From Acidobacteriota bacterium (lineage in GTDB: Bacteria; Acidobacteriota; Terriglobia; Bryobacterales; Bryobacteraceae): a stretch of DNA of 64,000 bases. The stretch lies in NCBI GenBank assembly GCA_016213775.1, contig JACQZR010000155.1, positions 62,001 through 126,000 on the forward strand, in the 5' to 3' direction. Position numbers and translations under genes: made by a program. Every line of letters begins with the position of its first letter. Positions within the stretch are counted from its first letter, which is position 1. The notes beneath the pieces were generated by a model. That model was not told where the DNA came from. It saw only the letters and a list, made by a program, of their open reading frames with translations, and did not search any database. Positions 8,798-28,268 of the stretch are shown in pieces.

Positions 8798-10105
8798 CTA
8801 CAACCGTTCCAGACGAGTGGTGGCATCGCCAAACCGATCGAGTTTCACCCCCATGCGGTCCATCAACGACAAATACAGACTGCAGACCTTGCGATTCTCG
8901 TTGCCGGCATTGAGGTAGTCCAGTGTGCGGCCGGTTTGCAGTGTGCCGCCGAGTCCACCGGCCAGCACCAGCGGCAGGCGCGAGTTGTCGTGCTTGCGGC
9001 CGATCCAGAGATTGTTGATCCACATGAGGCACGAATTGCCGAGCACGGAACCGTTGCCCTCGGGCATCGCATCGAGCTTCTGCGCGAGGTAGGCAAGCTG
9101 GCTCAGATGGAACCGGGAAATGCGCTCGTAGCCATCGGAAGTATTGTTGTGCGACGCCGCATGGTGGCCTTCCTTCACTTCGAGAAACGGATAGTAGAGA
9201 GCGGACAGATCGCGCGCCAGCAGCAGCGTGGCAATGCGGGTCTTGTCCGTCTGGAATGCGATGGCGATGATGTCGCACATCAGGCGCGCATGCTCCCGCA
9301 AGTCCTCGGGAAGACCGTTAGCCGGACGATCCATAGAGAAAACCGGCTTATTCTTCTGCCGGGCGGAATCCGCGGCTCTGTCCTTGCTGTCGCGCATGCG
9401 CTCGACGCGTTTTTCCACTTCACGCACGCTGGTGAGGTATTCGTCCAGTTTGGCCTTGTCTCCAGAACTGATCTGCTTCGTCAGAGCGACCGCATCTTCC
9501 TTCACGCGATCGAGGATGCTCATGTTGCGCAGACTGCCGCGGTTTTCAAACAGATTGTCCCAGGCGAGCGACGGGTACACTTCATTGGGCACCGGTGAAT
9601 CGGCCGATTGCCACGAAATGTGCGAGCTGTAAGCCATCGAGAAATTGGTTTCGTGATAGCCGGTCATGGGCTGCTCACAGGCCAGCACAATGCTCGCTTG
9701 CGCAGTGTCCTGTCCGATCCTGTTGGCAAGCATCTGGTCGATGGTGATGCCTGCCTTGATGATTGCGCCGCGCTGGATCTGCGCCCCGGAGAGCATGGCG
9801 CCGGTCTGCGCCGGGTGAATTCCCTGACCAGTGGCGGGTTTGTTGAAGAGACCGTGAATGACGTTGATTTTGTGCTTGATGGGCTCCAGGCAGGAGAGAG
9901 TCTTGCTCAGCTTCATCTCCGCGCCCGATCCTTCTGAACCCCAGTGATCCTCGTTCACGCCGTTACCCATAAAGAGGGCGGCGAAGCGCTTGGGCGGCTC
10001 CTGACCGGTGGTGCCGGCATACAGCGGAAGAGCTTCCATCCAGGGTAATCCCATGGCGACGCCTGCGCCGCGGAGCACGGTTCTTCGGGAGATCGGTTTC
10101 AGCAT
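8798..10105 (-). CDS. Tat-exported DUF1552 protein
   Basis: 435 aa from ATG 10105, chosen because it yields a Tat leader (ISRRTVLRGAGVAMGLP). DUF1552 blocks include RFAALFMGNGVNEDHWG, LSCLEPIKHKINVIHGLFN, HPAQTGAMLSGA, SIVLACEQPM, YSSHISWQS, HHAASHNNTSDG and NSCLMWINNLWIGRKHDNSR. The family belongs to the DUF1501/sulfatase-like group of exported proteins and is found almost always with DUF1592-type cytochromes in Acidobacteria and Planctomycetes. The gene starts 31 nt after the end of exactly such a cytochrome gene. The biochemical role is unknown. The N-terminal extension available up to 10204 overlaps the upstream gene and is not credible. Confidence 0.9.
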   Translation of the reverse strand: MLKPISRRTVLRGAGVAMGLPWMEALPLYAGTTGQEPPKRFAALFMGNGVNEDHWGSEGSGAEMKLSKTLSCLEPIKHKINVIHGLFNKPATGQGIHPAQTGAMLSGAQIQRGAIIKAGITIDQMLANRIGQDTAQASIVLACEQPMTGYHETNFSMAYSSHISWQSADSPVPNEVYPSLAWDNLFENRGSLRNMSILDRVKEDAVALTKQISSGDKAKLDEYLTSVREVEKRVERMRDSKDRAADSARQKNKPVFSMDRPANGLPEDLREHARLMCDIIAIAFQTDKTRIATLLLARDLSALYYPFLEVKEGHHAASHNNTSDGYERISRFHLSQLAYLAQKLDAMPEGNGSVLGNSCLMWINNLWIGRKHDNSRLPLVLAGGLGGTLQTGRTLDYLNAGNENRKVCSLYLSLMDRMGVKLDRFGDATTRLERL

Positions 10106-10136
10106 CTGTGCCTCACTATCTGCGTAGTATTTTATT

Positions 10137-13115
10137 CTATTCCGTGCTCCGCCGTTTGTTGAGGAACTGCGGGCTGGTGACGATGGCCTCCACCAGTGGG
10201 GCAAACTTGTAGCCGTTGGCCGCGGACGCTGCGCGCATGCGGTCCACGGTCAGTTCATCGGACAGCAGCAACGACCGGCCGAGCGCATAGGCGAGTAATT
10301 TGCGGCTGAGATTATCGACGAAGTCTTTCTGGCGATGCTCGCGAATGTAGGTTTGCACGCCGGCGAGGCCGGCACCTTGCGAGCCGCCGGGAAATGTCGC
10401 GTTGATGTCGACCGGGCGTCCGCCGAGATCCTTCTCCCGTTTTTCTCCAATCGGCCCGTAGCTTTCAAACGCCAGTCCGAAGCTGTCAAAGCGTGCATGA
10501 CAACCGGCGCATGCCGCGTTCTCGCGATGCTTGGCGAGCATGTCTCGCAACGGAAGATTCATCAGCGTTTCGTCCTTGGGCAACTCCGGCACCGAAGGAG
10601 GAGGCGGGGGAATCGCTTCGCCCAACACGCGCCGCACCACCCAGTAACCGCGCTTCACCGGGCTCGTCCGCAGTCCGGGCGAATTCTGCGTGAGAAACGC
10701 GGACATCGTGAGCAGGCCGCCGCGTCCATATTGATCGGCGTTGTCCACGCGCACCCATTCGTTCTTTGGCGGCTCGGGCATTCTGTAGTGTTTGGCAAGC
10801 GCGGTATTCACAAAGGTGTAGTTGCCATACAGCATGTCGAACACGGAACGGTTGTTGCGGATCACGTCGGCGATGTAGTGAATCGGCTCCTGGAACATGG
10901 CCTCGCGAAGCTCGTTGTTGAAGCTGGGGAAGCGCTCGCGGTCAACAGCGTTGTGATCTTCAAAGCGGCGAAAGTCAAGCCAGTTGCCGGCGAATTCGGT
11001 AGCGAGTCCTTGGGCGCGGCCGTCCTTGAGCATACGCCGGGTCTGCGCGGCGAGCACTTCCGGTTTCACGAGATCGCCTTTACCCGCTCGTGCCATCAGT
11101 TCTTCGTCCGGCATGCTCGACCAGACGAAATAGCTGAGCCGGCTGGCGAGATCGTAATTCGACAGCGGCGACGTCCCCTTCGAGGTGAGGCTGCCGGCAT
11201 CGATGCGATAACTGAATTTCGGCGACATCAGGACGCTGACAATGGAATCGCGAACGGCGTCTTCGTGAGTCAGGCCGCTCTTCTCGCGCAGCGATTTGTA
11301 ATAGCCAAGGACGCGTTCGCGCTCGGCAGGCTGGAGCGGACGCCGGTAGGCGCGCGCGGCAAACCTGAGCAGCGCGTCCACATGGAGCGGCTCGGCCTTG
11401 AGGCGCATCTCTTCCAGACGGCGCAGCGTCGCGTCCACGCGGTGAAAATGATCGCGAATGGCCTCCTTCGCAATCGGATCGTTGGTGGGGCGCGCATCCG
11501 CCTTGGCAAGGTAGGCATCGCGCAGATTCATGATCACCGGTGTTGCGCTGACCGCCTTGTCCGAAGGGCGGCTGCTGCCTGACTCGCGCCCGTTGCCCAG
11601 AATCTCGCCGCTTTGATTAAAGAAGTACTGCACCCAGGTGCGCCCTGTGAACTCGGCAGTGAAATCGAACTCGTCCCACAGCCGGTCGAGTTCCTGCTTG
11701 CCCTTGTCATCCAGGATGAGTTCGCTCAGCGCCGTGTCGTCACGGTAGTAGCCCATGACGTTGTGATAGCCGGCACTCAGCAGGCGGCCCTTGTCCTGCG
11801 AATCATCCGGGAAGAAGCGCCCGCGCTCGCGGACGTAGAACACATCGGGAAACACGTTGGCAAAGCGCGCGAAGGCAGCCTCGTAGCGCGCGCGTTCTCC
11901 GCCTGGGACAATGAGATCGCTATCGCCCACGCGCGACTTCTTCATCAGGGCCGCGGCGCGAAATGCCGATTCCTGGCCGAGACCCGGATAGCGCGGAATC
12001 GTGGGAGCCTCGAGCGGCGGATCGGTGTCGTTGCGAAGCGCATCGCGGTCGAAGTCGCGGCGGTGGGAAGCGAATGCCCACAGCTTCCAGTTCATCAGCG
12101 GCTGCGATGTGGGGCTGAGACCAGCTACCACCGGCGCGGCGAATTCTCGAGCCGTGCGCTTCCGCAAACGCACCACGAAATCACGCATAGTCACGCACTG
12201 TGCCCGCACTTCCGCGTTTGCGTTCGCCCCCGGCGCCGGCAACGCCCGCCACATGCCGCGCAGCTTCAGGATCGGGCCTACCTCGTCCACGCCTTTTTGC
12301 TCCAGGATGTCCCAGACGAGCGGCATGTACTTCGCGCTCAGCTTGGCTTCGGTGGCAAGGGCGGCCAGCGTCGCGTTCGGTTTTCCCAACGCGGCGCGGT
12401 GTTTGTAGCGCCAGGCTGCCTGGAAGAAGTCGGCGTAGTCAGTGGGCTGACGCTCGTAGAAATCGACGATGCGCCTGATGGCGAATTTCTCGCGGTCGGT
12501 CTCCACCAGCATCGGATGCGGGGAAAACGTGAATCCGTCGGGAGTGAGCACCATGTGATTGGCAACTTCCCGCGCGGCCAGCAGGTATTTGTTCAGCAAC
12601 GCCGGCGACATCGAAAGTGACTCGCCCGAGTTGTCGAAGCCGGCGGTGTTTGCGGGATCCACGGGGAACTCACGCGTCGGCCGGATATCCACGCCCGTCA
12701 GATCGCGAATCGTGTAGTTGTACTCGGCGTTCGAAAGACGGCGCGCCAGCACCGGTCCCGGATCACCGGCATTCTTCCTGGCCTCATTCGTTCGCATTTC
12801 CTCGATCCAGCGGACCACTGCTTGCCGCTCGGCAGCGGTGGGCTGCTTCATTCCTTTGGGCGGCATCTGGCCCGACGTCAGCTTGGCGAGAACTTCGTTC
12901 CAGTGCCCGTAATCGCGCACCACGGAGGCAAGGTTGGTGTAAGGCCGCAGATCAAACTGCGCCGCCGGCGTAGCTGTCGCATGGCAGCCGTTGCAGTAGC
13001 TGGCGAGAAATGGACGCACGGTCTGCGTGAACTGCCGGTCGAGATCGGCATCAGCAGCGTGTAGCGCGGGCGCGGCTGCGACAAGGCAAAGAAGTATTGT
13101 GGTGTGGATTCGCAC
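10137..13115 (-). CDS. DUF1592/DUF1588/DUF1585 protein with planctomycete-type cytochrome c domain
   Basis: 992 aa with a signal peptide (TILLCLVAAAPALHAA). A PSCyt1-like cytochrome domain comes first (about 30-105), carrying one CNGCH heme site and SGQMPPKGMKQP, which provides the likely methionine ligand. Then come DUF1587 (RRLSNAEYNYTIRDLTGV, NTAGFDNSGESLSMSP), DUF1595/DUF1592 (FAARAYRRPLQPAER, VSVLMSPKFSYRID, YDLASRLSYFVWSSMPD), DUF1588 (GLLTMSAFLTQNSPGLRTSP, CAGCHARFD with a second CxxCH) and DUF1585 at the end. So two c-heme motifs are present. It is exported and paired with DUF1552. The complex's substrate is not established. Confidence 0.92.
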   Translation of the reverse strand: MRIHTTILLCLVAAAPALHAADADLDRQFTQTVRPFLASYCNGCHATATPAAQFDLRPYTNLASVVRDYGHWNEVLAKLTSGQMPPKGMKQPTAAERQAVVRWIEEMRTNEARKNAGDPGPVLARRLSNAEYNYTIRDLTGVDIRPTREFPVDPANTAGFDNSGESLSMSPALLNKYLLAAREVANHMVLTPDGFTFSPHPMLVETDREKFAIRRIVDFYERQPTDYADFFQAAWRYKHRAALGKPNATLAALATEAKLSAKYMPLVWDILEQKGVDEVGPILKLRGMWRALPAPGANANAEVRAQCVTMRDFVVRLRKRTAREFAAPVVAGLSPTSQPLMNWKLWAFASHRRDFDRDALRNDTDPPLEAPTIPRYPGLGQESAFRAAALMKKSRVGDSDLIVPGGERARYEAAFARFANVFPDVFYVRERGRFFPDDSQDKGRLLSAGYHNVMGYYRDDTALSELILDDKGKQELDRLWDEFDFTAEFTGRTWVQYFFNQSGEILGNGRESGSSRPSDKAVSATPVIMNLRDAYLAKADARPTNDPIAKEAIRDHFHRVDATLRRLEEMRLKAEPLHVDALLRFAARAYRRPLQPAERERVLGYYKSLREKSGLTHEDAVRDSIVSVLMSPKFSYRIDAGSLTSKGTSPLSNYDLASRLSYFVWSSMPDEELMARAGKGDLVKPEVLAAQTRRMLKDGRAQGLATEFAGNWLDFRRFEDHNAVDRERFPSFNNELREAMFQEPIHYIADVIRNNRSVFDMLYGNYTFVNTALAKHYRMPEPPKNEWVRVDNADQYGRGGLLTMSAFLTQNSPGLRTSPVKRGYWVVRRVLGEAIPPPPPSVPELPKDETLMNLPLRDMLAKHRENAACAGCHARFDSFGLAFESYGPIGEKREKDLGGRPVDINATFPGGSQGAGLAGVQTYIREHRQKDFVDNLSRKLLAYALGRSLLLSDELTVDRMRAASAANGYKFAPLVEAIVTSPQFLNKRRSTE

Positions 13116-13346: not shown

Positions 13347-13787
13347 TCAGGGCTCGGGCGTGAAAATGGAAATGCCGGGTTCCGCGGGAAAGTCAGCCGC
13401 CTTGAAGGTTAGAAGCCGAGTGACTCCATTGGCTTTCATGGTGGCCATTAGATGAGCATCGTGGACACGCTTGCCCTTCAAGCCGTGCCGCGCCACGATG
13501 TCGAGCCAGAGGTCAACCACGACCGGAGGTTCTTCGAGCACAAGGAACCGGCTTCGAATGACCTCCACTTCCGCACGAGCCCGCGCGACGGACCATCCCA
13601 AACCGTTTGCGGTGACCGGCCGCGTAGCAACACTCCAGAGCTCAAAGAACACCTGAGGGGCGACTGCGAGGCGGTCGCCGGCGGCAAGCAGCCGCCCGAC
13701 GGACGCTGTTGCAGCGAAGTGCTCCGCGGCTCCCGGATTGGAGATATACAGCAGGATGTTTGTATCGAGCAACCAGCCGGCGGTCAT
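13347..13787 (-). CDS. PIN-domain protein, VapC-like toxin
   Basis: 146 aa from ATG 13787, where it overlaps the antitoxin stop by 4 nt. The PIN fold is marked by the first acidic motif LLDTNILLY (about residue 6), a glutamate in QVFFELWSVATRP, and the C-terminal acidic pair in KRVHDAHLMATMKANG and LLTFKAADF. The family cleaves RNA, often tRNA, using magnesium held by these acids. All four expected acidic positions appear present, so the toxin may be active. A 6-bp hairpin (13337-13353) straddles the stop codon but has no T-tract. Confidence 0.85.
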   Translation of the reverse strand: MTAGWLLDTNILLYISNPGAAEHFAATASVGRLLAAGDRLAVAPQVFFELWSVATRPVTANGLGWSVARARAEVEVIRSRFLVLEEPPVVVDLWLDIVARHGLKGKRVHDAHLMATMKANGVTRLLTFKAADFPAEPGISIFTPEP

Positions 13788-14047
13788 TCGTACATGGAAT
13801 CGCGCCGCGTGGCTTCCCGCGGCAGCGGCGGGCTGGCAGGCAGTCCGCGGATCCATTCCTCAAGCCAAGCGACACGTTGTGCCGGTGTCGTGCTTGCCCA
13901 CCAGCATGCCGCCTGAACAGGCTCACGCCGCAAGATGAAGAGGTCTCCGTGCGGCTCGACGGAGAATCTCGTACCTGGCTCCACACCCATTGACCCGGCT
14001 GGCACGAGCAGAGCGCCGTCCTCATCGGCCTGGATCGTCAAACCCAT
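13784..14047 (-). CDS. Antitoxin of the PIN toxin, AbrB/SpoVT-like
   Basis: 87 aa from ATG 14047. The N-terminal 40 residues (TIQADEDGALLVPAGSMGVE, PGTRFSVEPHGDLFILRRE) have the swapped-hairpin pattern of AbrB/MazE-type DNA-binding antitoxins; the C-terminal half (AWLEEWIRGLPASPPLP) would bind and block the toxin. The stop overlaps the toxin start (ATGA). Such operons are normally repressed by the toxin-antitoxin complex. The gene begins inside the 3' tail of an IS1-type transposase remnant, so the pair borders degraded mobile DNA. Confidence 0.75.
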   Translation of the reverse strand: MGLTIQADEDGALLVPAGSMGVEPGTRFSVEPHGDLFILRREPVQAACWWASTTPAQRVAWLEEWIRGLPASPPLPREATRRDSMYE

Positions 14048-14059
14048 ACTGTCATTGTA

Positions 14060-14334
14060 TCCATATACCTTGGGAGGCGTCGCAGACGGGCAGTGCCGGA
14101 TAGTTGCGTAGCAGATTTTTTCACGCAATCCGGAAGTTCCCAGATGTGATCAGTGATGCCTGCTGCCATTGCCGGAGTCATACGGATGGAGCGATGCATG
14201 CGGCAGAAATTGTAGTAGCCGGAATGTAGGCAGTAGGCGTACCACAGGTTATCCCACTTCTTGGAAAACGCGTTTGTCAACCGGGTGAGACGGCGCATCT
14301 GCATGCGGATCGTAAGGTTGTTGTAATGGGTCAC
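14060..14334 (-). pseudogene. C-terminal fragment of an IS1-type transposase
   Basis: The leftward reading frame contains NNLTIRMQMRRLTRLTNAFS followed by KKWDNLWYAYCLHSGYYNFC and RMHRSIRMTPAMAAGITDHI. This is the conserved C-terminal end of IS1-family DDE transposases (the TRLTNAFSKK and YYNFCR signatures). No N-terminal part or catalytic first aspartates can be found upstream, and no terminal repeats are recognisable, so only about the last 90 residues remain. It abuts the antitoxin gene. Confidence 0.8.
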
Positions 14335-16170: not shown

Positions 16171-17718
16171 TCATAGCTTCAACTCCCAGCCGGCGCGGAA
16201 GACGGGTTTCAAGTACTTGTTCGCTTCCACGCTGTTGGTGAACCGCAGGTTCTTGCTGTCCCACTGGAGTTTTCCTGGGACGCGGAAGGCGATCACGCCG
16301 AGCAGCATCCATTCTGCGTACGGGCCGGAGATACTGAAGTTGGAACACGACGGCTCGCCACCCTTGCAGGCGCGGACCCAATCCGCCATGTGGCCGGGCG
16401 ATCGGGTGAGCAACTGCGGCGGCAGAACATATTCCTTCCAGCGCGAGGCAGGCAGAAGATGCACACCCTCGCCGCGGTTGACGGTGGCCATCAGACCCTT
16501 GGTACCTACAAAAACCGCACCGTTGCCGCTCAACACTCCCGGCTGTTCCGGCACGCGCTCGGGGCCGTAGACGTTGACGCCTGGTCCACCAGCACCTTGA
16601 CGGGGACGGCCAGCCGGCCCCCCTTTCTTGCCGCCGAATCCGGAAGGCGGGCCACTGAATCCGCCACCACCAGGGCCGCCGGTCCGGACGCGGCCTCTGC
16701 CTTTGTCGCCGAGGTTGTCACTCGGCGGAAGAACCTTCTCGTTCTCCATCCCAGGCACTTTGTACGCCTCGGCGTCGCCGGCCTGCGCCGAATCATGCCA
16801 GTAGATGGCAACCGGAGGCATGCCGCCACGCTGCGGAAACTCGAACTTGATCACGGCCCGATCCGGAAACGTGAGCTTGCTGGAGTTGGACACCTGGATC
16901 ATCTCCACGCTGGTGGGCGCGCCAAGCTGTAAAGCGAGGTTCACTGGCCCCATCGAATGAATGCCCCAATTGCCGATCTGACCGGTGCCGAAATCGAAAA
17001 ATCCGCGCCAGTTGTATGGCGTGTATTCTTCCGCGTAAGCGCGCATGGAAGCTCCGCCCAACCACAGGTCATAGTTCAAATTCGACGGCACCGACTTCTC
17101 TGGAGGCGCCTGCTTCAGGCCCGTCGGATGAGTGCCCGGCGTGGAGGAAACGTGAACCTCTTTCACATCCCCAATCGCGCCCGACCAGATGATCTCGGCC
17201 GCAGTCCGGATGCTCTCATGTGAATACCCTTGATTGCCCATCTGGGTTGCGACCTTGTACTTCACAGCGGCGTCCTGCAGCAGGCGCGCTTCCCACGGCG
17301 TACGTGTCAGCGGCTTCTCGACATAGACGTGCTTGCCACGCTGCATGGCATGGAGCGCGACGGTCGCATGCATATGATCGGGGATGCCGATCGTGCAGGC
17401 ATCGATGTTCTTGCCCTCTTTATCCAACATCACGCGAAAGTCTTTGTACTTCGGCGCTTTGTCGAATTTCTGGAAGTTGGCAGCGGCGCGCTTCTCATCC
17501 ACGTCGCACAACGCGACGATGTTCTCCGTGGCCGAGGCCTGGTTCAGAATTGAGCCTCCCTGTCCACCGCATCCGACGGCGGCGACATTGAGCTTGTCGT
17601 AATAGGGTTTGTAGCCCAAAGCGCGAAGGGAAGCAACGGAGCCGAAACCGGCGGCGGGGACTGCTCCGGCAAACAGCGAGCCGAAGAAGAAGTAGCGGCG
17701 AGAGACGTGGTAGGCCAT
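16171..17718 (-). CDS. Exported Gfo/Idh/MocA-family oxidoreductase with glycine-rich insert
   Basis: 515 aa from ATG 17718. A Tat-like leader (HVSRRYFFFGSLFAGAVPAA) precedes the Rossmann fold (NVAAVGCGGQGGSILNQ, NIVALCDVDEKRAA) with the EKP catalytic-lysine motif (GKHVYVEKPLTRTPWEARLL) and the C-terminal alpha/beta domain (GFFDFGTGQIGNWGIHSMGP). The family performs NAD(P)-dependent oxidoreduction of sugars; the acidobacterial exported members have unknown substrates. Unusual is a glycine, arginine and proline-rich insert of about 45 residues (RVRTGGPGGGGFSGPPSGFG onward) in the C-terminal half. The frame is open upstream to 18438, but that part runs antisense to the cytochrome gene and is not credible. 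Confidence 0.88.
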   Translation of the reverse strand: MAYHVSRRYFFFGSLFAGAVPAAGFGSVASLRALGYKPYYDKLNVAAVGCGGQGGSILNQASATENIVALCDVDEKRAAANFQKFDKAPKYKDFRVMLDKEGKNIDACTIGIPDHMHATVALHAMQRGKHVYVEKPLTRTPWEARLLQDAAVKYKVATQMGNQGYSHESIRTAAEIIWSGAIGDVKEVHVSSTPGTHPTGLKQAPPEKSVPSNLNYDLWLGGASMRAYAEEYTPYNWRGFFDFGTGQIGNWGIHSMGPVNLALQLGAPTSVEMIQVSNSSKLTFPDRAVIKFEFPQRGGMPPVAIYWHDSAQAGDAEAYKVPGMENEKVLPPSDNLGDKGRGRVRTGGPGGGGFSGPPSGFGGKKGGPAGRPRQGAGGPGVNVYGPERVPEQPGVLSGNGAVFVGTKGLMATVNRGEGVHLLPASRWKEYVLPPQLLTRSPGHMADWVRACKGGEPSCSNFSISGPYAEWMLLGVIAFRVPGKLQWDSKNLRFTNSVEANKYLKPVFRAGWELKL

Positions 17719-17926
17719 GGTTTGACGGTGACTGAGCGGGTGGGTAGTTGTCAAGATCCCGGAATCAGGATTTCCGCCGATTTGCGTCAAACGGCCCAAC
17801 GTCGGGGAAACGGCAATAGGGCCAAATTCCTCCACGACATTTCGCGCCCGGCACAAATGGCTTGATTTCAGCCGGATGGGGACTGGCCCAAAGATTGCAC
17901 TGAGATGCATTGCGAGTTTTGACGCG

Positions 17927-20713
17927 ATGCTGGTCCGAATCTGGTTGACACTCATATCGATGACGGCCTTGGCCGCTGCCCAAACTCCAAAAGCTGCAGC
18001 CAGCGCACCGCTTCCCGGCTCTGACGATTGCGCCGCCTGCCATGATTCCGGCCGCCGTACCGGCAAGCGCGAAGCTGGCGTCCCACCAGAGTTCGATGCC
18101 GCCGCATTGAAGGCATCCCCGCACGCTTCGCTCGAATGCAAAGCCTGCCATTCCGACATCAAAGAAGTCCCGCATGCAGACAAGTTGGAGAAGCCCGAAT
18201 GCGGTTCCTGCCACCCCGACCAGGCGACTATGTACGAAGAGAGTCTGCACGGGAAAGCGCTGGCGCGTGGCGACAGGATGGCTCCTGTTTGCAGTGGCTG
18301 CCACGGCACGCACAACGTGCTGCGCGCAACGGCGCCGCGATCGCCCATCTCGACGGTGGAGGTGCCCAAGCTCTGTGGCCGGTGCCACCAGGAAGGTTCG
18401 CCCGTCAGCAAGACGCACGCTATCCCGCAGTCGAACATCCTGGGTAACTACGTCGACAGTATCCACGGCGAGGGATTATTCAAGCGCGGGCTCACAGTGA
18501 CCGCCGTGTGCACCAGTTGCCACACGTCGCACTTCGTCCTGCCCCACACCGATAAACGCTCCTCCATCTCCCAAGGCAACATCGCCAAGACTTGCACGAA
18601 ATGCCACGCGCAGATCGAGGCTGTGCACCAGAAGGTGATTCGCGGCGAACTCTGGGAGAAGCAGCCGCATCTCATTCCCGCCTGCGTCGATTGCCACGAA
18701 CCGCACAAGGTGCGCAAGGTTTTCTACGCGCAGGGCATGGCGGATCGCGATTGCCAGAAGTGCCATGCTGATCCGGCATTGAAGGTGGTGCGCGACGGAA
18801 AGACCGTGCCGCTGTTCGTGAAGCACGAACAGATAGCGGGCTCGCGTCACGCGAAAGTAGCTTGCGTCCAGTGCCACACTTCTGTCAAGCCGTCCAAGAC
18901 GCGCCCGTGCGATGGCATTACGGCGAAGGTGGATTGTTCCATCTGCCATGCGCAGGTGGTGACGCAGTACCAGGAAAGCACGCACGGACAGTTGTCGGCA
19001 AAGGGTAGTGCCGACGCCCCCGGATGCCTGGATTGCCACAGCGGACACGGCACGCAGGGGAAGAACGATTCCAACTCGCCGACGTTTTCGCGCAATGTTC
19101 CGAACCTCTGCGCCAAGTGCCATCGCTCCGGGCAGAAGGCGGCCAACCGCTACAACGGAAAGCAGGAACATATCCTCGAACGGTACTCGGAAAGCATTCA
19201 CGGAAGGGGCCTGATCCAGGCCGGACTCACCGTCACCGCCGATTGCGCCGACTGCCACACGCCACACCACGAACTGCCGAGCAAAGACCCACGCTCTACG
19301 GTGAATAAGGCAAACGTTGCCAAAACGTGTGCGCAATGCCATCGCGGTATCTACGAGACATTCACCAGCAGCGTGCACTCGAGCAACGTGACCAGGACCG
19401 GCAAAGAGCTGCCATCCTGTAGCGACTGCCACTCGGCCCACGGCATCCAGCGTACCGATGAATCCAACTTCCGCCTGCACATCATGGATCAATGCGGACG
19501 CTGCCACAAGGACATCACCGAAACGTATTTCGAAACCTTCCATGGCAAAGGATCGACGCTGGGCGACCTGAAGACGGCGAAGTGCTACGATTGCCACGGC
19601 GCCCACGACATCCTGCCGGTGACGAACGACAAGTCAAGGTTGAGCCGCAACAATATCGTCGGCACCTGCGGCAAGTGCCATCCCGGGTCGCACCGCCAGT
19701 TCGCAGGCTACCTGACGCACGCTACTCATCACGATCCGAAACGTTATCCGTTCCTCTTTTACACCTTTTGGGGAATGACGACCCTGCTCGTGGGGACGTT
19801 GGTGGTGTCAGGCGCCCATACGGCGTTGTGGTTGCCACGGTCGCTCGAATACCGCAGGCAGCTTCGCGCTCGCGCCGCCGGCGATCCGGAAAAATACGTC
19901 AGGCGCTTCCGGCCGCTGCACCGCAATCTGCACCTGATGGTGATTACGAGTTTCCTCGGCCTTGCGGTGACGGGCATGATCCTGAAGTTCTCCTACGCGC
20001 CATGGGCGGTGGTGATCGCCAAACTGGTGGGCGGATTTGAGGCGGCGGGCTTTATCCATCGGGTCTGCGCCGTGCTGACGTTCACCTACTTCGGCCTCCA
20101 TTTGTGGGACGTGCGGAAGCACAAGACCAACTCCGGCAAGGGCTGGCTGCGAATGATCTTTGACCGTGAAGGTATGATGTTCAACCGCCGCGACTGGAAG
20201 GAGTTCATCGGATCGTTGAAATGGTTTGTCAATCGCGGCCCACGCCCCGAATATGGCCGCTGGACCTATTGGGAAAAGTTCGATTATTTCGCGGTATTCT
20301 GGGGCGTGGCCGTCATCGGCACGACGGGCCTCATCCTCTGGTTCCCGCAGTTTTTCACGTGGGTGATCCCCGGCTGGATGGTCAACGTCGCCACCACCAT
20401 CCATAGCGATGAAGCGCTGCTCGCCGTTTGCTTCATCTTCGTGGTGCACTTTTTCAACACGCACTTCCGGCCGGAGAGGTTCCCCATCGACACGGTAATC
20501 TTCACTACCGGGATGCCGCTGGAAGAGTTCAAGCACGACCGTCCGCGCGAGTATCAGCAGCTTGTGGAATCCGGGAAACTGGAAGAGTACCTGATGGACG
20601 CGCCGCAGCAGCGCACCGTCACCATCTGGCGCAGAATCGGATTCACGGCGCTTGGCATCGGAATGCTCGTGATTGTCTTCATCATCTACGCGGTGATTTT
20701 CTCTTACCGCTAG
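17927..20713 (+). CDS. Nineteen-heme cytochrome c fused to a cytochrome b membrane domain (CbcL-like layout)
   Basis: 928 aa from ATG 17927 (leader MLVRIWLTLISMTALAAAQ); an in-frame ATG lies at 17876. Residues about 30-585 carry 19 CXXCH c-heme sites (from CAACH to CGKCH), grouped in NapC/NrfH- and doubled-CXXCH-like segments such as SIHGEGL, STHGQLS and TFHGKGS that repeat at heme pairs. The last third has six predicted membrane spans (about 608-630, 666-688, 708-730, 786-806, 828-845, 905-926) with histidines in LHRNLHLM, FIHRVCAVLTF, YFGLHLWD, TIHSDEALL and VVHFFNTHF, as in formate dehydrogenase gamma/cytochrome b561 proteins. Geobacter CbcL has the same order with fewer c hemes and moves electrons from quinol toward the outside. 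Quinol oxidation linked to periplasmic electron transfer is the likely role, inferred. Confidence 0.92.
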   Translation: MLVRIWLTLISMTALAAAQTPKAAASAPLPGSDDCAACHDSGRRTGKREAGVPPEFDAAALKASPHASLECKACHSDIKEVPHADKLEKPECGSCHPDQATMYEESLHGKALARGDRMAPVCSGCHGTHNVLRATAPRSPISTVEVPKLCGRCHQEGSPVSKTHAIPQSNILGNYVDSIHGEGLFKRGLTVTAVCTSCHTSHFVLPHTDKRSSISQGNIAKTCTKCHAQIEAVHQKVIRGELWEKQPHLIPACVDCHEPHKVRKVFYAQGMADRDCQKCHADPALKVVRDGKTVPLFVKHEQIAGSRHAKVACVQCHTSVKPSKTRPCDGITAKVDCSICHAQVVTQYQESTHGQLSAKGSADAPGCLDCHSGHGTQGKNDSNSPTFSRNVPNLCAKCHRSGQKAANRYNGKQEHILERYSESIHGRGLIQAGLTVTADCADCHTPHHELPSKDPRSTVNKANVAKTCAQCHRGIYETFTSSVHSSNVTRTGKELPSCSDCHSAHGIQRTDESNFRLHIMDQCGRCHKDITETYFETFHGKGSTLGDLKTAKCYDCHGAHDILPVTNDKSRLSRNNIVGTCGKCHPGSHRQFAGYLTHATHHDPKRYPFLFYTFWGMTTLLVGTLVVSGAHTALWLPRSLEYRRQLRARAAGDPEKYVRRFRPLHRNLHLMVITSFLGLAVTGMILKFSYAPWAVVIAKLVGGFEAAGFIHRVCAVLTFTYFGLHLWDVRKHKTNSGKGWLRMIFDREGMMFNRRDWKEFIGSLKWFVNRGPRPEYGRWTYWEKFDYFAVFWGVAVIGTTGLILWFPQFFTWVIPGWMVNVATTIHSDEALLAVCFIFVVHFFNTHFRPERFPIDTVIFTTGMPLEEFKHDRPREYQQLVESGKLEEYLMDAPQQRTVTIWRRIGFTALGIGMLVIVFIIYAVIFSYR

Positions 20714-23028: not shown

Positions 23029-23484
23029 ATGATTGCCCGTGATGGTGGAGTCGACCGCCGGCAGTTCCTTGAAGATTCGCTGCTGGCCGCGGGGGTTGTG
23101 CCACAGTGTTGTTCCACACCTCCTGCTCCGATGGAAAGCATTCGTTTCGAAGGGTCCAGACTCATACTGGATCTGCGAAGAATCCCTACTCTGCGATCAA
23201 ATGGTTCAGCCTGCGCTGTGTGGGATGAGACGCGGAAATTGAACCTCATCGTGGCGCGAACAGAGGCGAAGCACTTTGTTGCATTGAATCGTGCCTGCAC
23301 CCACGGCGGTGCGAGTTGCACGTACATGCACAAGAGCCGCACGCTCCGTTGTACCAGCCTGAACCACGCCGAATACACCCTCGACGGCACGCTGCTGCAC
23401 GGCCGTACGCACGGCAACTTGAGGGCATACCACCTGCGTCTGAACGGCCCCTACATCGAGATCGACCTGGAGAAGGCGTCGTGA
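23029..23484 (+). CDS. Rieske-domain protein with a Cys-to-Ser change at a cluster ligand
   Basis: 151 aa. A Tat-like start ([20 protein letters not shown]) suggests export, followed by a Rieske fold at about 45-148. The first ligand pair is present in [14 protein letters not shown]. The second pair reads [20 protein letters not shown]: counting from the first histidine, 17 residues precede the S of SLNH, exactly where the canonical C-x2-H cysteine belongs, and the cysteine present lies two residues earlier (C-x4-H). So the [2Fe-2S] cluster is either altered or lost. The stop overlaps the GTG of the SUMF1-like gene, so the two are translationally coupled. Confidence 0.8.
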
Positions 23485-24152
23485 TACGCGCGGTGACGGC
23501 AGGGATCGTGCTCTGCACTCTTGCCCTGGCGGAGAGCCCGGATTTCGTGCGCATTCCCTCGGGAGATCTCTGGATGGGGAAGACCGAAGTTACGGTCAAC
23601 CAGTTTCGCGCCTTTGTCCAGGCCACGGGTCATCGAACGTCCGCGGAGAAGCAGTCAAGCCAGCGCACCTGGCGCTCACCGGGCTTTAAGGCATCGGGTC
23701 AGTCGCCCGTCGTTTACGTCAGCGTCCAGGACGCAACCGCCTACTGCGAGTGGATTGGCGCGCGACTGCCCACCGACCAGGAATGGGAGCATGCAGCCAG
23801 CGCCGGCGCAGCCACCCGCCACTACTGGGGCGAATCCATCGACGGTCGTTATCTCTGGTACCGGACGAACTCGGATGGCAGACCGCGCCCGGTAGGGCGG
23901 AAACTTCCCAATCGGTGGGGACTGTACGACGTCGAGGGCAACGTTTGGGAATGGACGATCGTGGAGCCACAAGAAGCAGAGCCCTTGGCTAACCGTCGCG
24001 GCGGATCCTGGATTGATTGCGAGAACATTGAAGGCGCGCCTGGAACGGGGTTCTCTCCATTGATCGGACTCAAGAAGTACTACAAAATCCCGATCAAGCT
24101 CGAACATCGGTATGACGATATCGGCTTCCGTTGCGCGCGGACGCGGCCATAG
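23481..24152 (+). CDS. Secreted SUMF1/formylglycine-generating-enzyme-like protein
   Basis: 223 aa from GTG 23481, overlapping the Rieske stop by 4 nt (GTGA) and giving a short leader ([15 protein letters not shown]). Typical SUMF1 blocks follow: [92 protein letters not shown] and DDIGFRCAR. The paired catalytic cysteines of true formylglycine-generating enzymes are not both present after GGSW, so sulfatase activation is doubtful; the family is widely used as a fold for other jobs. The downstream PSD1/DUF1501 pair has a sulfatase-like member, which makes the pairing notable. Confidence 0.85.
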
Positions 24153-24202
24153 CGGAAAGAGCAAGCGTTGCAATCCGCCCGCCGACTTCGTCTAATAGAC
24201 CT

Positions 24203-26875
24203 ATGCGGCCCGCCTTTCTGGGACTCCTGCTCGCCGTCGTTGTTGGTGCTGCTCCGCCTGATGTCGCGCAGCGCCTGTTGCTCGACAAGTGCGCCAAGTG
24301 TCACGGCGGGGGCGCGAAACTCAGCGATCTCGATGCCACCTCGCGTGAGGGGCTGCTCAAAGGCGGCAAACAGGGCGCGGCTCTCAAGCCGGGTGACGCG
24401 GCAGGCAGCAGACTCTATCAACGGATCTCCGAAGGGAAGATGCCGCCGGGCGAGCCGCTCGACGCGGCAACCGTGGCTGCCGTGCGCGATTGGATCAACG
24501 CCGGCGCACTGTGGACGGCCGGCAGCAGCAAGCCATCGAAGCAGTATTGGGCATTTGCGCCACCCGTCAAGCGCACGCCGCCACTCGCGGCCACCAATGC
24601 CATCGACGCGTTTCTGCAATCCAAACTACGAGAGCAACAACTCGACTTCAACCCCAAGGCCGGCCACCGCACGCTCATCCGCCGGCTTTACTTCGACCTT
24701 ACGGGCCTGCCGCCAGGCCCTGACGATTACGGACAGACCTACGAGCAAGCCGTGGAGAAACTGCTCGCTTCACGCCACTATGGCGAGCGCTGGGGACGCC
24801 ACTGGCTGGACGTTGTCCGCTTTGGCGAAACCGACGGCGGCGAGCACAACTACGAGCGCATGAACGCCTGGCCGTATCGCGATTGGGTGATTCAATCTCT
24901 GAATCAAGACAAGCCCTACCACCAGTTTATTCGCGAACAAAGTGCCGGCGACGTGATCGCTCCCAATGACCCGAGGATGGTGGCGGCGACAGGATTCCTG
25001 GTGGCAGGGCCGTGGGACTCCGTCAGCGCCGTGCTGAATAAGGACGAAACGCTGCGCGAGCAGGCGCGCATGGATGAGCTCGACGACATGGTCACCACGA
25101 CAGCGCATAGCTTCCTCGCCCTCACGGTGAATTGCGCGCGCTGCCACGACCACAAGTTCGACCCCATCCCCACGCGCGACTATTACCGCATGACCGCCTT
25201 CTTCCGAGGCGTCGGTTTTGGCGAACGCGAGGTGGGCAGCGAACAGGCGCGCCGCAAGCGCGATGAATACGTCAAGCCGCTCAACCGTGCCGTGAGCGAC
25301 TTGCGCAAGAAGATCGCCGAAATCGAAGATGCGCCCCGGACGCGTCTGTTGATCGAGAAACTGCAGGCGCTCGACCGCGATCGCGCGGGCGAGCCGCGCC
25401 GTCTTCCACTCAACCCCGTGTGGAATCGCAACGTCTTCGCCGAAGCAAAGTCGGACAAATTCCGTTTCGTCATCGGAGGTGGCCGCAAGAGCAAGCTTCC
25501 CGTGGTGGAGTATCTCGAACTGCTTCCCGCGGGGCACAGGGTGACCAATTGGACAGTACCGAAAGACGCCAACCCCGATGCCGACGTGCCAATGGAAATC
25601 ATGCTGAGCGGCCCGCAAAGCGTCTCCGAGATCCGCTTCGCCAGCGATTCCAAACGCGGTTCCAAGGACGGGCTCATTTCCGTCTACCGCTTGGACGCGT
25701 GGGTCAATGACGCGTGGCGGGAAGTTTGCTCTTCGCTCGATCACGTCGGCGCAGTGGAGATGGACATGCCCGAAGTGACGGCGGCTGAGTTGACGCCGCT
25801 GCTAACGCCAGAGCAGAGACAGCAGCGGACGGAACTGCAACGCGGTTTGGCGGATCTGCAACGCCAGATCAACGGCGGGCCCAAGGTGGACAAGCTCTAC
25901 GCCGCGGCACCAAAGGATCTGGAGAAAGCGTGGCTGCTGGAACGCGGCAACGTGAAGCGTCGCGTCGAAGAATTGACCCCCGGGGTGTTGAGCGTTGTAG
26001 GTGGCGAAGTGGACACCGGCGCTCTCAACAACGGCGGCACGCGCAGGCTTGCCCTCGCCAACTGGATTGCCAGCGAGAAGAACCCGCTCACCGCTCGCGT
26101 CATCGTCAATCGTGTCTGGTTCCTCCACTTCGGCAACGGCATCGTCAACACGCCGTCCGATTTCGGCGTGAATGGCGACCGTCCCTCGCATCCCGAACTA
26201 CTCGACTGGCTCGCCGTTTCGTTCATGGAGAACGGATGGAGCCTCAAGTGGCTTCACCGGCAGATCGTTTCCACACGCGCCTATCAGCAATCCTCCGCGT
26301 TGAACCAAAAAGCATTCGCCCTGGACGCGGGCAATCGGCTCCTTTGGCGCATGCCGCTGAAACGCATGGACGCCGAAACCCTCCGCGATTCCGTGCTCGC
26401 GACAACCGGCAATCTGAACCTCGCCGCCGGTGGCCCCAGCTTCCTGCTGCAAAAGAACGCCGCCCGCGGAAGCTACATCTACAAGGCTCTCCACAACGAC
26501 GGCCCCGAAGTGTGGAAGCGCGCCGTATACCGTTTTGTGGTGCGCGGAGGTGAGCGCATCATGATGGACAGTTTTGATTGCCCCGACCCTTCGGTGGCCA
26601 CGCCACAGCGCGCCATCTCGAATACGCCCGTGCAGGCGCTCACGCTGCTCAACAACAGCTTCGTCCTCCGCCAGGCGGGTCTGCTCGCCGCGCGGCTCGA
26701 CAAGGAGGCGCCCACCTCCTCGCAGGATCGCATTCGTCGCGCGTACCATCTGATGTATGGCCGCGCGCCATCGGATACCGAACTCGCCCGCGACGTTAAG
26801 TTCGTCGCCCAACAATCTCTGACCGCATGGTGCCGGGTAATGCTCAATTCGAATGAGTTTGTCTATGTTCCTTAA
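24203..26875 (+). CDS. PSD1/DUF1549/DUF1553 protein with planctomycete-type cytochrome c domain
   Basis: 890 aa from ATG 24203 (leader MRPAFLGLLLAVVVGAAPPD). The N-terminal PSCyt1 domain carries CAKCH and GKMPPGEP (heme and likely methionine ligand). DUF1549 follows (RTLIRRLYFDLTGLPPGPDD, ERWGRHWLDVVRFGETDGGE, RCHDHKFDPIPTRDYY with another CxxCH in NCARCH), then a discoidin-like middle and DUF1553 (LALANWIASEKNPLTARVIV, NRVWFLHFGNGIVNTPSDFG, FGVNGDRPSHPELLDWLAV, LKWLHRQIVSTRAYQQSS). The stop overlaps the start region of the DUF1501 gene. These pairs are abundant in Acidobacteria and Planctomycetes, often with carbohydrate genes; the reaction is not known. Confidence 0.93.
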   Translation: MRPAFLGLLLAVVVGAAPPDVAQRLLLDKCAKCHGGGAKLSDLDATSREGLLKGGKQGAALKPGDAAGSRLYQRISEGKMPPGEPLDAATVAAVRDWINAGALWTAGSSKPSKQYWAFAPPVKRTPPLAATNAIDAFLQSKLREQQLDFNPKAGHRTLIRRLYFDLTGLPPGPDDYGQTYEQAVEKLLASRHYGERWGRHWLDVVRFGETDGGEHNYERMNAWPYRDWVIQSLNQDKPYHQFIREQSAGDVIAPNDPRMVAATGFLVAGPWDSVSAVLNKDETLREQARMDELDDMVTTTAHSFLALTVNCARCHDHKFDPIPTRDYYRMTAFFRGVGFGEREVGSEQARRKRDEYVKPLNRAVSDLRKKIAEIEDAPRTRLLIEKLQALDRDRAGEPRRLPLNPVWNRNVFAEAKSDKFRFVIGGGRKSKLPVVEYLELLPAGHRVTNWTVPKDANPDADVPMEIMLSGPQSVSEIRFASDSKRGSKDGLISVYRLDAWVNDAWREVCSSLDHVGAVEMDMPEVTAAELTPLLTPEQRQQRTELQRGLADLQRQINGGPKVDKLYAAAPKDLEKAWLLERGNVKRRVEELTPGVLSVVGGEVDTGALNNGGTRRLALANWIASEKNPLTARVIVNRVWFLHFGNGIVNTPSDFGVNGDRPSHPELLDWLAVSFMENGWSLKWLHRQIVSTRAYQQSSALNQKAFALDAGNRLLWRMPLKRMDAETLRDSVLATTGNLNLAAGGPSFLLQKNAARGSYIYKALHNDGPEVWKRAVYRFVVRGGERIMMDSFDCPDPSVATPQRAISNTPVQALTLLNNSFVLRQAGLLAARLDKEAPTSSQDRIRRAYHLMYGRAPSDTELARDVKFVAQQSLTAWCRVMLNSNEFVYVP

Positions 26876-28268
26876 CCGCTCTCGCAAACCCACGCGCCGC
26901 GAACTCCTGTGGGAAATCGGCGGCGGCCTCGCTGGTCTGGCCCTGGCGCAACTGGAAGCCCACGCCGCGCCCATCAAGCCCCACTTCGACCCCAAGGCGA
27001 AGCGCGTCATCATGATCTCGCTGCCCGGTGGGATCAGCCACGTGGACACCTTCGACTACAAGCCCGAACTAACCAAACATCACGGCGAAGCCACCACCGG
27101 CGCCAATACCATCACCCCCTTCTTCGGCAAGAAGGGCATGCTCATGAGGAGTCCCTTTTCCTTCAAGCAATACGGCCAGACCGGCAAGTGGGCGTCCAGC
27201 CTCCTGCCACATCTCAACCAGCGCGTGGACGACATCACCTTCCTCCACTCGATGGTTTCGCGCAGCAACGCACATGGACCTGCCATCTTCCAGATGTCCA
27301 CCGGCTTCATCTTCCAGGGGTTCCCATCGGTGGGCTCGTGGATCAGCTACGGCCTCGGATCGGAAAACGAAAACTTGCCTTCCTTCGTTGTCCTGCCCGA
27401 TCCCCGCGGACTGCCGCCCTGCGGTGTCGCCAATTGGGGCAACGGCTTTCTTCCGGCCGCACATCAAGGAGTCATCTTCGGCGGGGAAGAGAACCCCATC
27501 GCCGACCTCCGGCCACCCGAGTCCGTGAAAGCGCGCGAGCAAGCCGCCACCTACGACCTGCTCACGGAAGTCAACCAGGAGCACCTCAAACAGAACCCCG
27601 GTGAAGATGCACTAGCCGCGCGCATCAAGGCCTACTCGCTGGCAGCGCGTATGCAGGTGACCGCACCGGAAGTCACCAGCATCGCCGGCGAATCGGAAGC
27701 AACGAAAGAGATGTACGGCCTCAACGATCCGGCCTCGCGCGCCTTCGGCTACAACTGCCTGCTCTCCCGCCGCCTCATCGAACGCGGTGTGCGCTGCGTG
27801 CAGCTTTTCAACGGTGGCCATTTCGGCGCGCCGCGCGTCAATTGGGACGCGCATGAAGATCTGGTTGCCAACCACACCAAGAACGCACGCACCCTCGACA
27901 AACCGCTCGCCGGGCTCATTCAAGACTTGAAACAACGCGGTCTTCTCGAGGACACGCTAGTCGTGTTCACTACCGAATTCGGGCGCCTTCCGATCAGCGA
28001 GGGGCTGGGTGAAGGTGGGCGCGATCACAACCCCGAAGGCTTCACGTCGTTCCTGGTGGGCGCCGGCCTCAAGCCCGGCTTCTCCTACGGCTCCACCGAT
28101 GAACTCGGCTATAAGGCAGCCACGCATCCCACCACCATCTACGATTTCCACGCGACTATCCTTCACCTCATGGGCATTGACCACACGCGTCTCACCTACT
28201 ATCACAACGGGCTGCGCCGCCGGCTCACTGATGTGCATGGCCACGTGATCCAGGACATTCTGAGCTGA
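26865..28268 (+). CDS. Tat-exported DUF1501 protein
   Basis: 467 aa from ATG 26865, which overlaps the PSD1 gene by 11 nt; ATG 26853 gives four more residues. The Tat leader is KPTRRELLWEIGGGLAGLAL. DUF1501 blocks include RVIMISLPGGISHVDTFDYK, SLLPHLNQRVDDITFLHSM, HGPAIFQMSTGF, VGSWISYGLGSENENLPSFV, LLSRRLIERGVRCVQLFNGG, NWDAHEDLVANHTKNARTLD, VVFTTEFGRLPISEGLGEGG and GRDHNPEGFTSFLVGAGL. The family is related to alkaline phosphatase/sulfatase-fold proteins, exported with its PSD1 partner. Activity is unproven. Confidence 0.93.
   Translation: MFLNRSRKPTRRELLWEIGGGLAGLALAQLEAHAAPIKPHFDPKAKRVIMISLPGGISHVDTFDYKPELTKHHGEATTGANTITPFFGKKGMLMRSPFSFKQYGQTGKWASSLLPHLNQRVDDITFLHSMVSRSNAHGPAIFQMSTGFIFQGFPSVGSWISYGLGSENENLPSFVVLPDPRGLPPCGVANWGNGFLPAAHQGVIFGGEENPIADLRPPESVKAREQAATYDLLTEVNQEHLKQNPGEDALAARIKAYSLAARMQVTAPEVTSIAGESEATKEMYGLNDPASRAFGYNCLLSRRLIERGVRCVQLFNGGHFGAPRVNWDAHEDLVANHTKNARTLDKPLAGLIQDLKQRGLLEDTLVVFTTEFGRLPISEGLGEGGRDHNPEGFTSFLVGAGLKPGFSYGSTDELGYKAATHPTTIYDFHATILHLMGIDHTRLTYYHNGLRRRLTDVHGHVIQDILS

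Follow-up and report, generated by a model that had tools for sequence, protein, structure and literature searches.

A 19-heme cytochrome c arm fused to a cytochrome b domain in an Acidobacteriota genome: a probable quinol oxidase of the CbcL/MtoC/MtrH kind

The gene, its protein and its relatives

The subject of this analysis is a single open frame (17927-20713, forward strand) in a 64,000-nucleotide stretch of a Bryobacteraceae genome (phylum Acidobacteriota; GenBank assembly GCA_016213775.1, contig JACQZR010000155.1, positions 62,001 to 126,000), the whole of which is called the window here. A six-frame scan and translation give a protein of 928 amino acids (aa) with 19 CXXCH motifs and no CX3CH or CX4CH motif. 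Since 5000 shuffles of the protein produced a mean of only 0.11 CXXCH motifs and a maximum of 2, a chance origin of the 19 is excluded. The ATG at 17927 leads into a signal-like N-terminus (MLVRIWLTLISMTALAAAQ); the longer frame that begins at the upstream ATG at 17876 has no such N-terminus. An AlphaFold2 model (mean predicted local distance difference test score, pLDDT, 79.4; predicted template modelling score, pTM, 0.56) shows one helix for the signal and six towards the C-terminus (residues 608-649, 663-687, 704-736, 781-805, 817-846 and 895-926), and hydropathy is consistent with this. An earlier note on this DNA had described the gene as a fusion of 19 c-heme sites with a six-span cytochrome b domain, and both the motif count and the helices bear this out. 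The domain search finds the multiheme families Cytochrome_C7, Cytochrom_c3_2, Paired_CXXCH_1 and Cytochrom_CIII above their Pfam cut-offs, together with a match to Ni_hydr_CYTB (31.4 bits, cut-off 30.1).

A scan of genome contigs with the membrane part of the window protein confirmed at least 587 relatives, of which 80 were kept (loci L006-L085). Ten of their open reading frames (ORFs) run off the contig (L016, L019, L020, L023, L024, L026, L035, L040, L053 and L070); among the remaining 70, 66 have 19 CXXCH motifs and two have 21 (L029 and L037), L050 shows 8 owing to masked bases, and L068, near a contig edge, has 2. The 66 include L049 and L060, whose b part is a separate ORF. The other 64 are complete fusions with 19 hemes, 50 of which were aligned with the window protein (alignment A1, 51 long proteins). 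Among clustered relatives that keep the b domain the heme counts are 19 (57 sequences), 11 (18), 13 (8), 9 (4) and 21 (3); counts of 0 and 2 occur twice each and 4, 7, 8, 10, 14 and 15 once each, several of these rare values being contig edges or split genes, and a 12-heme relative is present in one Acidobacteriota genome (G278). The 21-motif versions (L029, L037 and, at a contig edge, L026) are from Zixiibacteriota, and their two additional hemes lie towards the N-terminus.

A tree of the b domain (98 rows) has a branch with 100/100 support that divides the long forms from the short ones, with the exception of one 9-motif row that is truncated at a contig edge. Seventeen phylum names appear in the records of the 66 fused long relatives in the tree, with 10 rows unassigned, and single phylum labels may be wrong because most of the records are metagenome-assembled. 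Among the matches listed, the closest relatives of the window gene are from Bryobacterales and other Acidobacteriota. No plasmid homolog was found at an expectation value (E) of 1e-10. The earlier note had regarded a division of the gene into two ORFs in relatives as evidence against the fusion. Such division does occur in a minority, after the first helix in L049 and L060 and as separate frames also in G073, G121 and G257, but it leaves the fusion standing here because the parts remain adjacent and in order.

The membrane domain has an FdnI-like core. With a profile built from 15 membrane domains, the sole PDB sequence match at E ≤ 0.01 was FdnI of formate dehydrogenase N (1kqf_C, E 7.4e-6), which was also the top Foldseek match of the model (target TM-score, TMt, 0.76; E 3e-3). 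The other Foldseek matches were hydrogenase-1 cytochrome b and weak hits to hydroxylamine oxidoreductase (E 0.03-0.4), the rest being at chance level. The formate dehydrogenase gamma subunit model (TIGR01583) was rejected as a description of the protein, with 30.2 bits against a curated cut-off of 115.85. Four FdnI histidines, His18, 57, 155 and 169, which we take to be the holders of its two b hemes, align with His669, 711, 826 and 841 of the window protein. Like these four, His631 and His725 do not vary in any of the 51 long sequences, and over 73 long rows the only departures from the six are gaps in two split genes; the b-heme histidines, which the earlier note had allowed might be missing, are therefore in place. 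Loops 632-662 and 737-780 have a net positive charge, as expected for the inside, unlike loop 847-894, whose net charge is not positive. The motif GRWTYWEKFDY, invariant at 10 of its 11 positions and nearly so at R778, occupies the place of the FdnI KYNAGQK loop, and we regard it as a candidate quinone site.

The features of the gene are as follows, with positions in the window.

17927-20713, forward: coding sequence of 928 aa, 19 CXXCH motifs plus six-helix cytochrome b (translation, Pfam, hydropathy, model)
17927-17983, forward: signal-like N-terminal helix, residues 1-19 (hydropathy; model helix 2-18)
18029-18043, forward: heme site 1, CAACH, residues 35-39 (motif count)
18122-18847, forward: octaheme copy A, hemes 2-9, residues about 66-307 (self-alignment score 388)
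18173-18175, forward: His83 of copy A (His in 71 of 73 long rows; the other two are truncated by contig ends and have a gap)
18848-19582, forward: octaheme copy B, hemes 10-17, residues about 308-552 (self-alignment, block tree)
18908-18910, forward: Cys328, the invariant non-CXXCH cysteine at the copy-B place of His83 (alignments)
19583-19681, forward: heme sites 18 and 19, residues 553-585 (motif count)
19748-20704, forward: six-helix cytochrome b domain with FdnI-like core, residues 608-926 (model, Foldseek, profile)
19931-19933, forward: His669, aligned to FdnI His18 (alignments)
20057-20059, forward: His711, aligned to FdnI His57 (alignments)
20255-20287, forward: GRWTYWEKFDY motif, residues 777-787, start of transmembrane helix 4, candidate quinone-site loop (conservation; putative role)
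20402-20404, forward: His826, aligned to FdnI His155 (alignments)
20447-20449, forward: His841, aligned to FdnI His169 (alignments)

Octaheme duplication and the invariant Cys328

When the heme arm is aligned with itself at eleven different shifts, only the shift of eight hemes gives a positive mean score, hemes 2-9 pairing with hemes 10-17 (score 388). A tree was made of the eight-heme blocks by a quick method without bootstrap, with the window's own copy B not among the copy-B rows; here copy A (18 rows), copy B (17 rows) and the matching block of the 11- and 13-heme relatives (26 rows) form one group each, with Shimodaira-Hasegawa-like approximate likelihood ratio (SH-aLRT) values of 98-99. 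A single tandem duplication of an eight-heme block, prior to the spread of the long clade, would explain this tree, and the arm is best explained as an 11-heme CbcL-like plan that was lengthened by such a duplication. The full-length profile also matches the PDB chain 6r2q_A (E 1.5e-10), which we take to be MtrA although the PDB file names the chain otherwise.

The potential distal ligands of the hemes can be counted from conserved histidines. The 18 relatives with 11 hemes have 11 invariant periplasmic histidines outside the CXXCH motifs, and the four with 9 hemes have 9 (L070, which has 9 motifs at a contig edge and groups with the long forms, was excluded from this alignment and from the short rows). 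One distal candidate per heme is the pattern of a wire rather than that of an enzyme with an open catalytic heme. In all 51 aligned long proteins the 19 CXXCH motifs are invariant, together with 19 other periplasmic histidines and one cysteine outside the motifs, Cys328. This residue of copy B corresponds to His83 of copy A, each lying eight residues ahead of the next CXXCH in the window protein. In the wider set of 73 long rows every one has Cys in the Cys328 column, and 71 have His in the His83 column, the other two showing contig-end gaps there; in a joint alignment the same 73 cysteines stand against His in all 30 short rows (9, 11 and 13 hemes). Eight further loci, from seven distinct genomes, all keep the cysteine.

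The long form thus has 20 candidate distal ligands (19 His plus Cys328) for 19 hemes. The spare one probably lies in the THATHH stretch that precedes the first helix, where five short forms have a single His. Because Cys328 is invariant where copy A and the short relatives have His, one heme is probably His/Cys-ligated, as hemes of SoxA, TsdA and DsrJ are, and the plain reading of the alignments would be 18 bis-His hemes and one His/Cys heme. Cys328 may instead have a non-ligand role, or there may be 19 bis-His hemes and an extra cysteine. A bolder idea, to which we give somewhat less than even confidence, is that the long clade would be a respiratory device in its own right: a distal His of copy B would have become Cys after the duplication, placing a low-potential His/Cys heme in the middle of the wire. 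There this heme would act as a redox switch or thermodynamic gate between the membrane-near half and the outer half, and the arm would perhaps be long enough to reach an outer-membrane decaheme without a soluble carrier. As far as our searches show, the near-constant 19-heme clade, the single octaheme duplication and the invariant cysteine are new.

Neighbouring and co-occurring genes

The divergent neighbour of the gene within the window encodes a GFO/IDH/MocA oxidoreductase (16171-17718, reverse strand, start near 17718), in agreement with the earlier note. The 19-heme gene has no multiheme neighbours here, since only two other frames among those longer than 60 aa contain two or more CXXCH motifs, and these have just two each. 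Both are large (10137-13115, reverse; 24116-26875, forward), and each is adjoined by a frame with the look of a DUF1501-type secreted protein (8798-10204, reverse; 26853-28268, forward); we presume a likeness to planctomycete-type cytochrome pairs. The frame at 23029-23484 (forward) is Rieske-like by eye with an altered second motif (CTH...CTSLNH, not CxxH), possibly a degenerate Rieske domain, and it matches no Pfam family at E 0.001. The frames at 13347-13856 and 13784-14128 (both reverse) resemble, by eye, a PIN-domain toxin and AbrB-like antitoxin pair.

Outside the window, 41 of the kept loci have 3 kb of sequence on both sides. Another gene with at least three CXXCH motifs lies within this distance at 25 of them and a short b/c relative at 13; c554-like tetrahemes are found at 8, a Rieske protein at 3 and a bc-type cytochrome b at 4. 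Seven of 34 loci with longer flanks, taken as a control, have a short b/c gene at 0-2 kb and none has one at 3.5-5.5 kb, whereas for any multiheme gene the figures were 18 and 13, so that only the contrast for the short b/c gene is strong. An ImcH-like gene occurs on 22 of the 80 loci; in all 22 a CX3CH motif precedes 3-9 CX2CH motifs and in most there are three N-terminal helices, which fits the description of ImcH in passages of PMC6295460. NrfD-family genes form two clusters, c4 at 8 of the 80 loci (within 3 kb at 2 of the 41) and c36 at two loci. In other phyla Rieske and cytochrome b genes with a 9- or 11-heme gene were seen near the 19-heme gene (L043, L046, L049, L074, L075 and L077).

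The earlier note had proposed to look for porins and outer-membrane cytochromes among the neighbours in other genomes, and in some related Acidobacteriota MtrA, MtrB or MtrC is clustered with the gene. The gene order in G121 and G073 (loci L139 and L140) is MtrA, MtrB, 19-heme gene, cytochrome b, 11-heme gene, ImcH, and in G278 (L138) it is ImcH, 19-heme gene, 12-heme gene and, further along on the same strand, MtrA and MtrC. The genome of the window encodes six decahemes above cut-off, three of the OmcA/MtrC family (454-497 bits, cut-off 209) and three of the DmsE/MtrA type, along with one ImcH-like protein and an MtrB/PioB porin that scores 302 bits with PF11854, over the Pfam cut-off, and 208 with TIGR03509 (cut-off 240). 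The electron acceptor, which the earlier note had left open, is less so in view of these genes. The same genome has Rieske and cytochrome b genes clustered with a 9-heme gene (L129:5665-8556, forward) and a short 9-heme relative (L127:6573-8252, on contig C143) that adjoins a decaheme/barrel-sized/decaheme cluster. Two barrel-sized ORFs (L127:11458-13482 and L128:6014-8023, both reverse) adjoin MtrA-like decahemes and share 22% identity (E about 1e-22); they have no NCBIfam match and at most a weak Pfam barrel match, and are perhaps a divergent MtrB-like porin family.

In 297 Acidobacteriota genomes, compared by Fisher tests that treat genomes as independent and ignore shared descent, an ImcH-like gene is present in 29 of the 36 genomes with the long form (one match, in G156, being partial) and in 99 of the 261 others (p 1.4e-6); it lies within 10 kb in 14 of the 36. 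For MtrA-like genes, taken at E ≤ 1e-45 (137 genomes, 120 of them over the curated cut-off), the figures are 30 of 36 and 107 of 261 (p 1.5e-6). The 36 were chosen by match coverage, not by heme counts in each genome, and in one (G153) the gene spans two contigs. A dedicated Mtr partner, as judged by porin presence, was considered and rejected, since neither MtrB/PioB nor OmcA/MtrC is enriched with the long form.

Proposed function and comparison with known systems

In our judgement the protein is quite probably an inner-membrane menaquinol oxidase of the CbcL/MtoC/MtrH kind that feeds extracellular electron transfer. The oxidation of menaquinol would take place next to the GRWTYWEKFDY loop, close to the cytoplasmic face, and the electrons would cross the membrane via two b hemes, the first held by His669 and His841 (heme b(C)) and the second by His711 and His826 (heme b(P)). 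From there they would enter heme 19, run along the 19-heme periplasmic arm and pass to periplasmic MtrA/DmsE-type decahemes and onward to outer-membrane conduits. The quinone site of FdnI is on the cytoplasmic side; with the same placement here, outward electron flow would spend membrane potential rather than build it. The proposal is based on sequence, motif counts, FdnI homology, conservation, the duplication, gene clusters and co-occurrence, and from these we infer the quinone site, the direction, the partner and the extracellular end point.

Several other explanations have been considered. An artefact, be it an assembly or annotation error, chance CXXCH motifs or a false fusion, can be taken as already refuted: nothing was found to support it, the shuffles never exceed two motifs, and alignment A1 shows the same fused plan in nine separate Acidobacteriota assemblies, with about 65-72% identity, and in most other relatives, with 44-62%. 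Electron flow in the opposite direction, with periplasmic cytochromes feeding in electrons (for example from Fe(II)) and quinone being reduced, would resemble formate dehydrogenase N with electrons from formate, or the proposal for MtoC. The FdnI-like b domain favors this, FdnI being an enzyme that reduces menaquinone, and Zhong & Shi (PMC6295460) found no sequence feature that tells oxidases from reductases. The abstract of that paper places ImcH homologs only in Fe(III) reducers, and with an ImcH-like gene so close to the long form in 14 of 36 genomes we hold the inward direction to be distinctly unlikely. It is also unlikely that the quinol oxidase passes electrons by way of small cytochromes to soluble reductases of the periplasm and has no extracellular end point. 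Such a role would account for the genomes that have the long form and neither MtrB/PioB nor OmcA/MtrC, and for the c554-like tetraheme, Rieske and cytochrome b neighbours; it accords poorly with the enrichment of MtrA-like decahemes, with the clusters that include MtrA, MtrB or MtrC, and with the barrel-sized ORFs of the window's own genome, which the porin models miss and which adjoin MtrA-like genes.

Finally, Cys328 raises the idea of a sulfur-active enzyme, in which a Cys/His heme like that of TsdA or SoxA would act on thiosulfate, tetrathionate or polysulfide and be coupled to quinone. The NrfD-family genes near some loci (Pfam "Polysulphide reductase, NrfD") could be read this way, but NrfD is a general quinone-linked membrane subunit. 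The invariance of the cysteine in the long forms and the Cys/His ligation of TsdA active sites, described in part of PMC9562282, point in the same direction. We nevertheless consider this very improbable: the annotated neighbours, which are only part of all neighbours, include no sulfur-specific catalytic gene, and the relatives that have His at this position keep the rest of the plan.

Returning to the menaquinol oxidase, a number of observations speak against it. The eight 13-heme relatives have only 11 invariant distal-His candidates for their 13 hemes, which a mixed alignment may explain. The pTM of the model is 0.56, and Foldseek gave no match to it at E ≤ 0.001. The likeness to CbcL comes from the published description of the Geobacter protein. 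The window has no conduit genes near the 19-heme gene; those of the genome are on other contigs, in an assembly of 314 contigs with an estimated contamination of 4.6%. Neither MtrB/PioB (present in 6 of the 36 genomes with the long form and in 55 of the 261 others, p 0.66) nor OmcA/MtrC (8 and 38 respectively, p 0.23) is enriched, 23 of the 36 have neither at the threshold used, and none of the association tests takes shared descent into account.

These results suggest that soil Acidobacteriota similar to the Bryobacterales have genes for extracellular respiration. The 19-heme form, with its heme number nearly fixed over many mostly uncultured phyla and its invariant His-to-Cys change, is a concrete marker gene, and the change itself offers a testable idea of how a heme wire might be gated. 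The cytochromes with "19 hemes" in the papers found are, in the portions of text that mention them, outer-surface or S-layer cytochromes; a literature search on titles and the starts of abstracts found no 19-heme b/c fusion and no His/Cys heme in a CbcL-type protein, which does not prove their absence.

By the features read from its sequence (CX2CH motifs at residues 35-585, six C-terminal helices, FdnI-like b domain) the protein is of the CbcL/MtoC/MtrH type, a kind described in the literature by 2018 at the latest, and the likeness to CbcL drawn in the earlier note is upheld. Its suggestion that such a number of hemes would be novel is not, as the excerpted text of Zhong & Shi (2018, PMC6295460) already gives 3-23 CX2CH motifs and lengths of up to 1034 aa for CbcL/MtoC/MtrH homologs, a range that covers the 19-heme protein. 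According to the same text, CbcL of Geobacter sulfurreducens and MtoC/MtrH share with the window protein the N-terminal CX2CH motifs, the six-helix HydC/FdnI-like b domain and the conserved membrane histidines, and their genes, like those of the long form, are in part near mtrAB or other cytochrome genes. The window protein differs from CbcL in having 19 hemes instead of 9, a duplicated octaheme block and an invariant Cys at a distal-ligand place. With FdnI of Escherichia coli formate dehydrogenase N (1kqf_C) it has in common the core and the four heme-b histidines; it has in addition two extra helices and the fused c-heme arm, with GRWTYWEK instead of KYNAGQK. The short 9-, 11- and 13-heme paralogues of the same and related genomes have the same fused plan, but they form a separate group in the b-domain tree, lack the octaheme duplication and have His instead of Cys. 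The ImcH-type NapC/NirT quinol oxidases share the role of an inner-membrane link from quinol to multiheme cytochromes through an unrelated membrane anchor, with three N-terminal helices and a CX3CH motif; CbcL and ImcH themselves, as described in part of PMC9012536, appear tuned to acceptors of differing redox potential.

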